Origin: Vreelandella songnenensis
Lineage (GTDB): Bacteria; Pseudomonadota; Gammaproteobacteria; Pseudomonadales; Halomonadaceae
Length of the DNA stretch: 64,000 nucleotides
Reading direction: 5' to 3'
NCBI RefSeq assembly: GCF_003002925.1
Contig: NZ_PVTK01000003.1
Span: forward strand, 62,001-126,000
Numbering within the stretch: the first letter of the stretch is position 1; every line of letters begins with the position of its first letter. Under the pieces are notes generated by a model. It searched no databases. It was not told the origin of the DNA and worked only from the letters and a program-made list of their open reading frames with translations. The translations under genes and the position numbers were made by a program. Positions 18,657-34,620 of this stretch are shown piece by piece.

Positions 18657-22566
<3,910 letters not shown>

Positions 22567-22608
22567 AGGGCTGTTTTTGCCTCCGGTGTAAGAGATGTCT
22601 CAAAAAAT

Positions 22609-22626
22609 TGTAAGACATTTCTTACA
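22609..22626. promoter_or_regulatory. GacA-type upstream activating sequence
   Basis: A perfect palindromic TGTAAG-ACATTT-CTTACA matches the TGTAAG-N6-CTTACA box bound by the response regulator GacA upstream of rsmX/Y/Z in Pseudomonas. A further TGTAAG half-site is at 22587-22592. The box lies 43 bp after eno and about 180 bp upstream of the GGA-rich RNA candidate. A TATACT hexamer (22683-22688) without a recognisable -35 lies 57 bp downstream and is a possible GacA-dependent -10. Confidence 0.75.
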
Positions 22627-22721
22627 AATGCCGACGAGAATCGCTCGGTTTGGGGTAAGAAATAGTGAAATTTCTGGTTAGCTATACTTCAAGTTATTGA
22701 TTGATTGTTACTTTTTTTCAG

Positions 22722-22747
22722 AAAGCGAGCCTTGAAGGCTCGCTTTT
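22722..22747 (+). terminator. Intrinsic terminator (eno, or short leader RNA)
   Basis: The 8-bp stem AGCGAGCC / GGCTCGCT with TTGAA loop is followed by CTTTTTGC. It most likely ends eno transcription before the RNA gene. If transcription starts at the TATACT above, the same hairpin would end a roughly 55-nt RNA or act as an attenuator. Confidence 0.75.
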
Positions 22748-22794
22748 TGCGTTTTGTGCCGCTTGAGAAGACACCGGTATCTGCCACAATGCAC

Positions 22795-22968
22795 ACAGGA
22801 CAGGGGAGGCAGGGATGCTTTAGACAGGATGCAATGCAACGGGGTGTAGGCAGGTACGCCGGGTGCCACATTGATGTGAGCCTTGGTAAGGAAGTTGCCT
22901 GAGGAGTTTGACACAGGGAGTGGTCAGAGGAAGTGCTTGGAGCGGGCGGCCTACGGGCCGCCTTTTTT
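22795..22968 (+). ncRNA. CsrB/RsmZ-like CsrA-titrating small RNA (candidate)
   Basis: A protein-free segment with nine GGA motifs (at 22798, 22805, 22813, 22827, 22890, 22903, 22917, 22929 and 22939) ends in a strong terminator. Several motifs are predictable hairpin loops: GGTAA-GGAAG-TTGCC (22885-22899) and CAC-AGGGA-GTG (22912-22922) expose GGA as CsrA prefers. Possible promoter: TTGAGA (22763-22768), 16 bp, CACAAT (22785-22790). A perfect GacA box lies upstream. In Pseudomonas aeruginosa rsmZ lies beside fdxA, and fdxA is the second protein gene downstream here, with csrA 11.5 kb further on. The exact 5' end is unknown. Known family behaviour: such RNAs sequester CsrA/RsmA from mRNA. Confidence 0.72.
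22945..22968 (+). terminator. Intrinsic terminator of the GGA-rich RNA
   Basis: Perfect 7-bp GC stem GGCGGCC / GGCCGCC with a TACG tetraloop, followed by six T. It has no upstream coding gene other than eno, which already has its own terminator; this supports an independent RNA. Confidence 0.88.
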
Positions 22969-23101: not shown

Positions 23102-23129
23102 CGGTACATCATTGATGTGCCGTTTTTTT
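23102..23129 (+). terminator. Leader terminator / possible attenuator ahead of the symporter
   Basis: The 9-bp stem CGGTACATC / GATGTGCCG (one G-U pair) with ATT loop is followed by seven T. It ends 21 bp before the tcyP ATG and just before its Shine-Dalgarno, a position typical of conditional termination in a leader. Confidence 0.6.
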
Positions 23130-23150
23130 AGTTTAGGGGAGACGGTAAAT

Positions 23151-24542
23151 ATGCTTGGGTTGGTTACGATCAACGTGTTGATCTTTGCGTTGGCCATCGC
23201 GCTGCTGGCGCGCTGGCAGCGAAGCGGCGCAAGCCTTTCGAAGGTGGTGCTGGTGGGCCTGGTGATCGGGGTTGGTCTGGGCGCGCTGCTACAGTGGCTG
23301 TTTGCGGATTCAGCGGTGCTTGAAGGCACCATCGACTGGGTCAATCTGGTCGGCGGTGGCTATGTCCAGCTGCTGAAGATGATCATCATGCCGCTGGTGC
23401 TGGTGACCATTCTCTCGGCGGTTACAAGGCTGCATGATGCCAGTGCGCTGGGCAAGATCAGCCTGGGGGTGCTGGCCATGCTGATGATCACAACCGCGAT
23501 CTCGGCCGTCATCGGTATCAGCATGACTCAGCTGTTCGGTCTTTCCGCCGAGGGGCTGGTGCAGGGGGCGCGCGAACTCGAGCGTGGGCAGGCCATTATC
23601 GAGCGCAGCGCACAGGTGGCGGACCTGAGCGTACCGCAACTGCTACTTTCATTCATTCCCGCCAATCCGTTTCAGGATCTGGCCGGCGCGCGCCCGACGT
23701 CCATCATCAGCGTCGTGATCTTTGCCACCTTCCTGGGCCTGGCGGCACTGGGCATCAGGCGGGAAAGCCCCGCGCTTGGCGACAAGCTGATTGAAGGCAT
23801 CGATCTGGTACAGAAGTGGATCATGCGCCTGGTCCGCATGGTAATTCGCCTGACGCCTTATGGTGTCATGGCGCTGATGACCAAGGTGGTTTCTACCTCC
23901 GATCTAGGCGATATTCTCGGCCTGCTTGGCTTCGTGGTGGCCTCCTACGTGGGCCTGACGCTGATTCTGGTCATGCACGCGCTGTTCTTGATGGGTGTTG
24001 GCGTCAACCCGCTACGCTATTTCCACAAGGTATGGCCGGTGCTTACCTTCGCCTTTACCTCACGCTCCAGTGCGGCCACGATTCCGCTGAATATCGAAGC
24101 CCAGGTAAGCCGCATTGGCGTGCCGCCTGCGATTGCCAACTTTGCCGCCTCCTTTGGCGCAACGATTGGTCAGAACGGCTGTGCGGGCCTGTATCCTGCG
24201 ATGCTGGCGATGATGATTGCTCCCACCGTGGGAATCGACCCGCTGTCGTTCGAGTTTCTGGCAACGCTGGTGCTGGTGGTGACGCTTGCCTCCTTCGGCA
24301 TTGCCGGTGTCGGCGGCGGGGCGACCTTTGCGGCCATCATCGTGCTTTCGACGCTCGACCTACCCATTGCCCTGGCGGGCCTTTTGATCTCCATCGAGCC
24401 GCTGATCGACATGGGCCGTACGGCGATCAATGTCAACGGCTCGATGACCGCGGGCACGGTGACCAGCCGGCTGCTTGGTCAGCACGACAGCGCGGTCTTC
24501 GATTCCAGCGACGACGAGCTGGGCGAGCCGAAAAGCGTCTAG
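23151..24542 (+). CDS. tcyP: L-cystine-type dicarboxylate/amino acid:cation symporter
   Basis: 463 residues, the same length as E. coli TcyP (YdjN), in the SLC1/DAACS fold with eight membrane helices and two re-entrant hairpins. Diagnostic runs are [35 protein letters not shown] (HP1 serine-rich motif), [16 protein letters not shown], and the HP2/TM8 region [10 protein letters not shown] and [10 protein letters not shown]. It should import cystine or related amino acids with a cation. The start at 23151 has AGGGGAGA 8 bp upstream; an in-frame ATG at 23112 lies inside the leader hairpin and has no Shine-Dalgarno. Substrate assignment is by family resemblance only. Confidence 0.85.
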
Positions 24543-24757: not shown

Positions 24758-25081
24758 TCAGCGCTCGAGCTTCTCGAGCTTGCCGGTCTTGCCATCCCAC
24801 TCTTCGGCGTCGGGCAGGGCGTCCTTCTTTTCCGAGATGTTGGGCCATACCTCGGCCAGTTCGGCGTTGATCTCGGTAAACTGCTCCTGCCCCTCGGGCA
24901 GCTCGTCTTCCGAGAATATCGCCTCGGCGGGGCATTCGGGCTCGCACAGGGCGCAGTCGATGCACTCATCCGGGTGGATCACCAGGAAGTTGGGGCCTTC
25001 GTAAAAGCAGTCGACCGGGCAAACCTCTACACAGTCAGTGTATTTGCATTGGATGCAGTTTTCGGTAACGACAAACGTCAT
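24758..25081 (-). CDS. fdxA: 7Fe ferredoxin
   Basis: 107 residues, the standard length of Azotobacter/Pseudomonas FdxA. Cysteines for a 3Fe-4S and a 4Fe-4S cluster are in [17 protein letters not shown] and [16 protein letters not shown], and the C-terminus is acidic with [18 protein letters not shown]. It is a low-potential electron carrier in the cytoplasm. The ATG at 25081 follows AGAGGGA; the longer in-frame start at 25129 would add 16 non-conserved residues. It lies downstream of mutS on the same strand but has a separate gap with the mutS terminator. Confidence 0.95.
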
Positions 25082-25166
25082 CGCGCTATCCCTCTTGCGG
25101 GACCGGGGATGCGTCCCGGTCATGGTCAATCGTGAATGGTTATAAAACAGCCGTTTTTTATAAGCT

Positions 25167-25235: not shown

Positions 25236-27818
25236 TTACAGCAGATCGCGCCACTGATAGATCAGTGCCAGCGCCTCACGGGGCGACAAGTCGTCAACAT
25301 CGGCCCGCTCAAGCGCGTCAATGACCGGATGCGGGGCGCTGGCAAACAGATCGTTCTGCTGGGGTGCCGATGGCGTGTGTGGCGCCTGGGCAGCAGATAG
25401 CGTCTGGTGGGTATCGACATCACGCTGTTCAAGCGCCATCAGCTTTTCTCGGGCGCGTTTGATCACGTGGGTGGGCACCCCGGCCAGCTGGGCGACCTGC
25501 AAGCCGTAACTCTGGCTTGCCGGGCCAGCCTCGATACGGTGCATGAACACGATGGTGTCGCCGTGCTCGGTGGCGGTCAAATGGATATTGGCCACGCCCT
25601 CGGCCTGTTCCGGCAGGGCGGTCATTTCAAAGTAGTGAGTGGCAAACAGGGTCAGTGCCCGTGCCCGCGCCAGATGCTCAGCGCTTGCCCAGGCAAGGGA
25701 AAGCCCGTCAAAGGTGCTGGTGCCGCGGCCGATCTCGTCCATCAGCACCAAGCTGTGCTCGGTGGCGTTATGCAGGATATTGGCGGTTTCGGTCATCTCG
25801 ACCATGAACGTCGAGCGCCCGCCGGCCAGATCGTCTGATGAACCAATCCGGGTGAAAATCCGGTCGATGGGGCCGATGTCGGCGGCATCGGCGGGCACGA
25901 AGCTGCCGCTGTGAGCCAGCAGCGCGATCAGGGCCGTCTGGCGCATGTAGGTCGATTTACCGCCCATGTTGGGGCCGGTAATCACCAGCATATGCTGCTC
26001 GGGGGTGAGCGTCACGTCGTTGGGCACGAAAGGCTTGTCGCTGACCTGCTCGACCACCGGATGGCGCCCGGCAGTGATGGTAATGCCGGTGGCATCGCTT
26101 AGCGTCGGGCGTACCCAGTTGAGCGCTTCGGCGCGTTCGGCAAAGGCGCACAGCACGTCAAGCTCGGCAAGCGCGCGCGAGGTGGCCTGAAGCTCTGCTA
26201 GCAGCCCGTTGAGTTCGCCCAGCAGACGGTCGTACAGCCACTTTTCCCGAGTGAGGGCGCGGGACTTGGCGGAAAGCGCCTTGTCCTCGAACTCCTTGAG
26301 TTCGGGAATGATGAAGCGTTCGGCGTTTTTCAGCGTCTGGCGACGGATGTAGTCAGCCGGCGCCTGCTGAGCCTGAGAGCGCGGCAGCTCGATAAAGTAG
26401 CCGTGTACGCGGTTGTAGCCGACCTTCAGGTTGGCAAGCCCGGTGCGCTCACGCTCGCGAAGCTCCAGCTGAACCAGATAGCTGCCGGCGTTTTCGGCCA
26501 TGCCGCGGTGCTCGTCGAGCTCGGCATCAAAGCCATCGGCAATCACGCCGCCGTCGCGGATTACCACCGGCGGATTCTCGATCAGCGCGCGGCTGAGCGT
26601 TTCGGCAAGCTCGGGGTAGGGGCGTACATGCGGGCGCAGGTTGTCCAGCGCGCTGCCATGCTCGATGTCGCCCAGCAGCTGCTCGAGATCAGGTAGCGTA
26701 TTCAGCGCGTCGCGCAGGCGTGCCAGATCCCGCGGGCGGGCGCTGTAGAGCGCGACCCGGGCAAGGATACGTTCGACATCACCCACGTCGTTGAGCGTTT
26801 CGCGCAGGGCCATGTACGCCGCGTCAAGGCCAAGCAGGGCAACCCCTGCCTGGCGGCCCTGCACGATGTCGCGCTGGCGCAGTGGCCGGTTCAGCCAGCG
26901 TTTCAGAAGGCGCGAGCCCATGGCGGTGGTGCAGGTGTCCAAGACGCTTGCAAGGGTGTTGTCCGTGCTGCCGCCAAGGTTGATGTCAATTTCCAGATTG
27001 CGCCGGCTGGCGCCATCGATCACGACCGCGTCGTCGCGGTTCTCGACGCTGATGGCAGTGACGTGGGGCAGGCGCGAGCGCTGGGTATCGCGGGCGTAAT
27101 CAATCAGCACGCCAGCGGCCACTAGCGCCGTGCTCAGGTGGGCGCAGCCAAATCCGCGCAGATCCTTGACTTCGAACTGGTCGCACAGGCTGCGGTTGGC
27201 GCTTTCCAGGTCAAAAAGCCATTCGCCCTGACGGCGCAGGCTGCGCTTTTGCGCCCACACGTCCGGCAGCGTCAGGCTTTCCGGCACCAGCAGTTCGGCA
27301 GGCGAAAGGCGGGTCAGCTCGGCCAGCATCTCGGCTTCGCTCTCGACTTCCAGCACGCTGAAGCGCCCACTGGAGAGTTCGAGCCAGGCAAGCCCCCAGC
27401 GGTCGTGGCCAGGGGCCAGGGAGACCAGCACGTTGTCGCGCCGGGCGTCCAGCAGCGCCTCGTCGTGCAGCGTGCCGGGGGTAACGATACGCACCACCTG
27501 GCGCTCCACCGGGCCTTTGCTGGTGGCCGGGTCGCCAATCTGCTCACAGATGGCCACCGATTCACCGGTGGCTACCAGGCGGGCGAGATAGCCTTCGGCG
27601 CTATGATAGGGCACACCGGCCATGGGAATCGGCTTGCCGCCGGACTGGCCACGCTGGGTCAGGGTGATATCCAGAAGCGCTGCGGCACGCCTGGCATCGT
27701 CAAAAAAGAGCTCGTAAAAGTCGCCCATCCGATAAAACAGAAGGACTTCGGGATGTTCGCGCTTGATCTTGAGATACTGGGTGATCATTGGCGTGTTGGC
27801 GGGGATGGCCTGTGACAT
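25236..27818 (-). CDS. mutS: DNA mismatch repair protein MutS
   Basis: 860 residues with all MutS parts: mismatch-binding domain with [11 protein letters not shown] (the FxE wedge, residues 30-40), connector, lever and clamp, and the ATPase with Walker [14 protein letters not shown], Walker [17 protein letters not shown] and the helix-turn-helix dimerisation region. It recognises mispairs and recruits MutL. Start ATG preceded by AGGA. Divergent from cinA; the mutS / cinA-recA-recX arrangement is shared with Pseudomonas. Confidence 0.97.
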
Positions 27819-34431: not shown

Positions 34432-34620
34432 ATGCTCATCCTAACCCGCCGTGTCGGCGAAACGCTGATGATAGGTGATGAGATCACCGTCACAGTGCTA
34501 GGTGTGAAAGGTAATCAGGTACGTATAGGCGTCAACGCGCCTAAAGACGTAGCGGTACACCGGGAAGAGATTTACCAGCGCATCCAGCGCGAGCGTAATA
34601 GTGAAAGCGAAACCGAGTAA
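34432..34620 (+). CDS. csrA: Carbon storage regulator CsrA (RsmA)
   Basis: 62 residues: [24 protein letters not shown] followed by the RNA-contacting [26 protein letters not shown] (given in two parts to stay short: [26 protein letters not shown]), with Leu4, Arg6/Arg7 and Arg44-type positions intact (VHREEI). The dimer binds GGA motifs in mRNA leaders and blocks or promotes translation. AAGGAG lies 8 bp before the ATG. The likely antagonist RNA is encoded at 22.8 kb. The csrA-tRNA-Ser-tRNA-Arg order is the same as in E. coli. Confidence 0.97.

Follow-up and report, generated by a model that had tools for sequence, protein, structure and literature searches.

A GGA-rich candidate RNA behind GacA boxes in Vreelandella songnenensis: a probable RsmZ orthologue of Halomonadaceae, with further GacA boxes at T6SS and adhesin genes

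Introduction

The described systems closest to the locus reported here are the RNAs of Gac/Rsm and Gac/Csr regulation, namely PrrB/RsmZ (RF00166), the RsmY-type RNAs, and CsrB/CsrC. PMC4950607 places the GacA box at -75 bp for rsmY and at -196 bp for rsmZ, and the genes of Pseudomonas rsmZ regions listed in a figure legend of PMC4353343 include fdxA and mutS. For Marinomonas mediterranea, PMC8523701 proposes a GacA motif before csrA1. Closer to the present genus, a table of 2020 (PMC7366521) enters GacS/GacA of Halomonas anticariensis for quorum sensing, exopolysaccharide, and biofilm, and enters the Gac RNA of the same organism as 'Unknown'.

Here, we describe a segment of the V. songnenensis genome (positions 22795-22968 of the window, that is, of the whole 64,000-nt stretch of DNA analysed) which, judging from its sequence and that of its relatives, very probably encodes a GacA-activated CsrA-sponge RNA. 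It is a candidate for the missing Halomonas Gac RNA, and the covariance model derived from it and its relatives, R1, is offered as a model for annotating the family, whose members include salt-loving production hosts. No earlier description of the RNA was found among the open-licence papers listed by a literature search.

Locus Organization

The upstream neighbour of the candidate RNA is eno (enolase; 21277-22566, plus strand), named from its ORF translation. A motif search located the perfect GacA box TGTAAG-N6-CTTACA at 22609-22626, where the preliminary description had placed it, preceded by a degenerate tandem copy with 2 mismatches to the box at 22587-22604. Between the box and the promoter of the RNA lies an intrinsic terminator, presumably that of eno (22719-22749, plus strand). 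The promoter itself (22763-22790, plus strand) is sigma-70-like and reads TTGAGA-N16-CACAAT, with TG preceding the second hexamer. Taking its 5' end from this promoter, the RsmZ-type candidate RNA spans ~174 nt (22795-22968, plus strand); the nine GGA motifs attributed to it were all counted within these limits, and the Rho-independent terminator that had been noted, a GC stem followed by six T, was found at 22944-22968 on the same strand. On the far side, a carrier-type ORF (23112-24542) stands in this genome between the RNA and the gene of an fdxA-type ferredoxin (24758-25129, minus strand; named by translation, start uncertain), which is convergent with the RNA and adjoined by mutS (25236-27818, minus strand; named by reading its ORF translation).

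Because the eno-type terminator (22719-22749) parts the boxes from the promoter, the most likely start of the RNA is near 22795; counted to this inferred start, the box-to-RNA distance is 177 nt by coordinates. A -10 pattern, variants allowed, was present in 30/30 genus loci, and the exact promoter element TGCCACAAT occurred in 8 of 20 family stretches. The stem at the place of the eno terminator is visible in the genus alignment, at a column identity of 0.662. In the region 22587-22749, the GacA boxes precede this putative terminator, so transcription of eno would cross them.

A segment directly behind eno, with the box in the eno 3' region ahead of the terminator, might be a 3' UTR-derived or eno read-through RNA with no relation to CsrA. 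We consider this origin very improbable, since a promoter-like site lies past the eno terminator, the segment has a terminator of its own, and its GGA triplets are kept more than other triplets and are mostly unpaired, as described below.

Conservation in the Genus and Family

A DNA search gave a match in 34 of 36 other genus genomes; the match in one of them (G003) lay only at a box elsewhere, and the RNA region is thus matched in 33 of 36. The best matches of this search were aligned as 30 genus loci, our own included. Mean pairwise column identity across these loci was 0.925 in the box, 0.85 in the tandem copy, 0.795 in the RNA, and 0.958 in its terminator; it was lower elsewhere, at 0.625 in the post-box spacer, 0.33 from eno to the first box, and 0.29 past the terminator. 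The boxes are kept across the 30 loci, though not all are perfect: 28 carry the box pattern, with 172-175 bp from box centre to -10 end in 27 of them and 164 in the other, and the remaining 2/30 have a box with a one-base variant. These comparisons and the family-wide matches given below indicate that box, tandem copy, predicted promoter, GGA-rich candidate RNA, and terminator are one unit conserved in the genus and beyond.

Each of the 30 loci carries 8-13 GGA. The ten consensus GGA triplets were kept in 0.92 of sequences, compared to 0.70 for 133 other triplets (p = 4e-4) and 0.76 for 46 other purine-rich triplets (p = 0.007). Taken from this one sequence, the motif counts say less. Nine GGA are weak evidence alone, since dinucleotide shuffles averaged 6.2 and 8.4% of them reached nine; eight AGGA/ANGGA compare with a shuffle mean of 3.0, a count that 1.1% of shuffles attained; and at least nine GGA were present in 135 of 127,652 segments of 174 nt, at four places. 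Folding of the single sequence, a check proposed in the preliminary description, was unremarkable, its energy having no significance (z -0.80). The case for the RNA is carried by conservation; alone, the sequence is only modestly above chance.

The covariance model R1, built on the 30 genus (Halomonas/Vreelandella) sequences, gave a match in 158 of 201 family genomes, which cover 15 of the 24 genera. These matches comprise 109 outside the genus and 49 within it (our own included), the genus count being partly circular because the 30 sequences behind the model necessarily match it. Among the rows displayed, which leave out 23 unmatched ones, the same-genus genome G009 had no R1 match. In the wider order, R1 matched 19 of 194 genomes; six of these belong to the family (our own included), and all scores above 35 bits came from the family. 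The other 13 order matches, at 25.7-34.8 bits and mostly of short span, were rejected as homologues. An exact 28-base core of the RNA was found in 39 named stretches, every title being Halomonas or Vreelandella, and the V. boliviensis LC1 record contains it; a plasmid search gave no match. Upstream of the family loci, a GacA box within two mismatches stood at 167-201 nt in 15/20, compared to 0/20 for the reversed control, and 5/20 had no box within two mismatches.

As a separate observation, among the genomes of genus g32 (G134, G167, G184), three R1 matches occur in one genome, which suggests further copies of the RNA there.

RNA Fold, Covariation, and GGA Exposure

RNAalifold on the 30 genus sequences predicted 47 pairs, 16 of them with two-sided changes. 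Over the 29 distinct rows, pairing holds in 97.2% of cells, and 0/500 shuffles reached any of five measures; slid controls fell far below the observed covariation. In a 31-sequence alignment, two-sided changes rose to 35 of the 47 pairs, and again 0/500 shuffles were as high on any measure, in a set that was fitted to the model and is biased that way, holds 20 divergent loci chosen from model matches (19 of other genera and one genus outlier), and takes its structure from the genus alignment. The covariation also bears on the coding potential of the segment. On either strand it is overlapped by ORFs of 60-68 codons and could in principle encode a small protein; this reading has next to no chance of being right, as the indels among relatives are not multiples of three and the base pairs covary.

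In the predicted consensus fold, outside the terminator, 83% of GGA bases are unpaired, compared to 42% of other bases. Wholly unpaired GGA number 204 of 272 over the 30 sequences, which are related, so that these exposure counts are not independent, and 6 of 9 in this RNA. Two hairpin loops had been drawn from the single sequence. The loop CAC-AGGGA-GTG is kept in the consensus fold and is supported by covariation. The second, GGTAA-GGAAG-TTGCC, gives way to another fold, in which the TTGCCTG side pairs with an upstream stretch in a longer-range helix and the GGA sits in an internal loop.

Relation to RsmZ and Other Known RNAs

A scan with Rfam covariance models, also recommended beforehand, found no family at gathering score on the RNA; the best relative was rsmX, at 15.3 bits. 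RF00166 was absent at the RNA even with E up to 10 and matched nowhere in this genome; as the RF00166 threshold of 44 bits was not reached, the RNA is not filed under RF00166 itself.

At 20/20 chosen family loci, an fdxA homologue was present, and an eno homologue at 19/20. Among the 194 order genomes, seven gave an RF00166 score over the cut-off. When seven loci from these genomes were fetched, fdxA and mutS appeared in the same convergent layout at five, the other two showing no fdxA or mutS within the fetched flanks, and the box-to-RNA spacing was 169-181 nt in 7/7. Because the fdxA-mutS neighbourhood and the box spacing match those of RsmZ loci, we read the RNA, with good probability, as a syntenic RsmZ orthologue in Halomonadaceae that lies outside the present Rfam model. 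It is like PrrB/RsmZ (RF00166) in its box ~170-180 nt upstream, its GGA-rich structured RNA, its terminator, and the convergent fdxA-mutS pair; it differs in length (~174 nt versus a 133-position model), in having eno as upstream neighbour, and in scoring below the cut-off.

Direct bridging of the two models gave low scores. On 20 RsmZ-type loci, R1 scored no higher than 29.3 bits (L303; 24.2 on L292), and RF00166 reached 24.8 bits in one (L198) of the 11 family loci scanned. Sub-threshold RsmZ matches had fdxA at 7 of the 13 fetched; ten were examined for spacing, of which only one had a box near the RsmZ distance, at 159 nt, three had one at 271-288 nt, and six none. These weak bridging scores, the lack of a clean series among sub-threshold RsmZ loci, and a similarity to RsmZ under the Rfam threshold would fit a CsrA sponge of independent origin rather than an RsmZ orthologue, a question of ancestry only, the mechanism set aside. 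The convergent fdxA-mutS shared at 5/7 RsmZ loci and the box spacing shared at 7/7 speak against such an origin, and we regard it as unlikely, though with an appreciable residual chance. The orthologue reading is the one retained here.

A 28.4-bit RF00166 match in the family genome G121 was set aside; it lies at another place than the R1 match and is without fdxA.

With CsrB/CsrC, including those reported for M. mediterranea in PMC8523701, the locus shares a GacA/UvrY-type box, many GGA, a terminator, and a presumed role as CsrA sponge; in contrast, the Rfam CsrB model had no match to the RNA at E up to 10. RsmY-type RNAs are alike in combining a GacA box with GGA hairpins and unlike in their spacing, the RNA at 22795-22968 having a long one.

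Partner Proteins and Proposed Mechanism

The csrA gene that had been claimed for the same window was found at 34432-34620 on the plus strand, and its product, the presumed target of the RNA, scored over both profile cut-offs (NF002469, 118.2 bits; TIGR00202, 100.8 bits). In contrast to csrA1 of M. mediterranea, no GacA box within two mismatches stands near csrA in this window. For GacS/BarA, the best candidate is a 917-codon frame at 610.9 bits, compared to the 890-bit BarA cut-off. One protein only passes the UvrY/SirA/GacA cut-off, and its gene adjoins a uvrC-like gene. The GacA model matches 28 places of the genome at E up to 0.001, and another regulator of the LuxR/NarL type could bind the palindromes in place of GacA. 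That assignment appears improbable: the motif corresponds to the GacA box as published (PMC8523701; PMC4950607), its position is that of the box at RsmZ loci, and a single protein exceeds the GacA cut-off.

With GacA as the presumed regulator, a signal through GacS-GacA would bring phosphorylated GacA to the tandem boxes ~180 bp upstream of the RNA, where it would activate the promoter at 22763-22790. Once terminated, the RNA would accumulate and sequester CsrA through its nine GGA sites, of which the conserved fold leaves six wholly unpaired, and so free CsrA-repressed mRNAs. In parallel, GacA might activate T6SS and adhesin promoters. We infer the transcription of the RNA, its GacA dependence, and its binding and titration of CsrA. 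Beyond anatomy, conservation, and covariation, this most likely mechanism rests on known Gac/Rsm systems, as described in PMC8523701 and PMC4353343, plus inference.

A Second Candidate GGA-Hairpin RNA

The preliminary description had taken the RNA to be the Gac/Csr RNA of this organism. As a class, this assignment agrees with the conserved unit, the encoded GacA and CsrA, and the RsmZ neighbourhood and spacing; it is probably not the sole Gac RNA, since a second candidate exists. A one-mismatch box at C1:1007036 precedes a second GGA-rich RNA, a model match at C1:1007107-1007212 of this genome (L011:1608-1714), on the opposite strand to the tRNA genes it faces. Six copies, our own included, share the hairpin GGCC-ANGGAN-GGCC, and two-sided changes occur in 4 of 24 predicted pairs; no terminator was identified for this RNA.

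A model of the six copies found the second RNA in 9 of 82 genus genomes (our own plus 8), six of these matches being the sequences from which it was built and one of the other three weak (34 bits). R1 matched none of ten further box loci in this genome, so the second RNA does not represent a copy of the first one. When the second RNA was used together with the adjacent tRNA as a DNA query, 25 of 43 genomes gave a match, which in nearly every case covered just the tRNA. Its layout is nearer to the RsmY type, its model beginning ~70 nt past the box.

GacA Boxes at T6SS, vgrG-Type, and Adhesin Genes

GacA boxes are not limited to the RNA; in this genome, T6SS and adhesin genes have perfect ones as well. 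Five perfect boxes were counted in it, compared to one for the reversed control, and 301 over 82 genus genomes, compared to 15 for the control, with 5/82 genomes having none. The sites in our genome are the RNA, hcp/tssB, a vgrG-type gene, a BapA-type adhesin gene, and one left unclassed (C3:220489). The T6SS box (C6:200743-200760, within C6:199200-202300; L008) lies between divergent hcp (PF05638) and tssB (PF05591). Boxes ahead of vgrG-type genes, one perfect and three one-mismatch, are at C2:411853, C15:1885, C6:153236, and C9:33805 (L006, L010, L012, and L009, respectively); the gene behind the perfect one has a Phage_GPD domain and was read as vgrG. Across 13 perfect-box vgrG loci, L006 among them, 100-132 bp separate the end of the box from the projected start of the gene. 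The adhesin box, a perfect one at C1:274968-274985 (L005), stands ~230 bp before a gene that carries a BapA prefix domain (PF22783), an arrangement that recurs in L094.

TssB is present in 34 of 82 genus genomes. At the 30 delivered tssB loci (L201-L230), a perfect box was found at 29 and a box within one mismatch at all 30, whereas the reversed motif, with one mismatch allowed, was found at 0/30. Perfect boxes stand 220-261 bp before tssB. This conservation is the strongest sign of a putative direct action of GacA on T6SS here. Since GacA boxes precede T6SS, vgrG-type, and BapA-type genes, GacA may drive T6SS both directly and via the RNA. We think it reasonably likely that the Gac regulon is rewired in this genus, with a direct GacA branch (hcp/tssB, vgrG-type genes, and BapA-type adhesin) running parallel to the branch of the RsmZ orthologue and CsrA, and some species having a second RNA.

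In P. aeruginosa, GacA reportedly acts exclusively through its RNAs, going by the title of a 2009 paper by Brencic, and the box distribution described here bears on that view. Other direct GacA targets in P. aeruginosa are reported in PMC6610081, and Pseudomonas T6SS transcripts are controlled through RsmA/RsmN according to a review (PMC10482370). A literature search returned no report of a GacA box at T6SS promoters in the titles and abstract openings of the papers listed.

Among the 76 perfect boxes in 18 genus genomes, 75 were classified, the exception being a box in G036; 16 were at the RNA, 11 before vgrG, 8 at hcp/tssB, 1 at bapA, and 39 at none of these. Three boxes (L047, L087, and L091) lie inside a frame reading as murE-type. 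Perfect boxes were also seen to recur near two kinds of gene named by reading their translations, a poxB-like gene (L007, L053, and L135) and a speG-like acetyltransferase gene (L046, L053, L089, L097, L098, L108, L114, L130, and L131).
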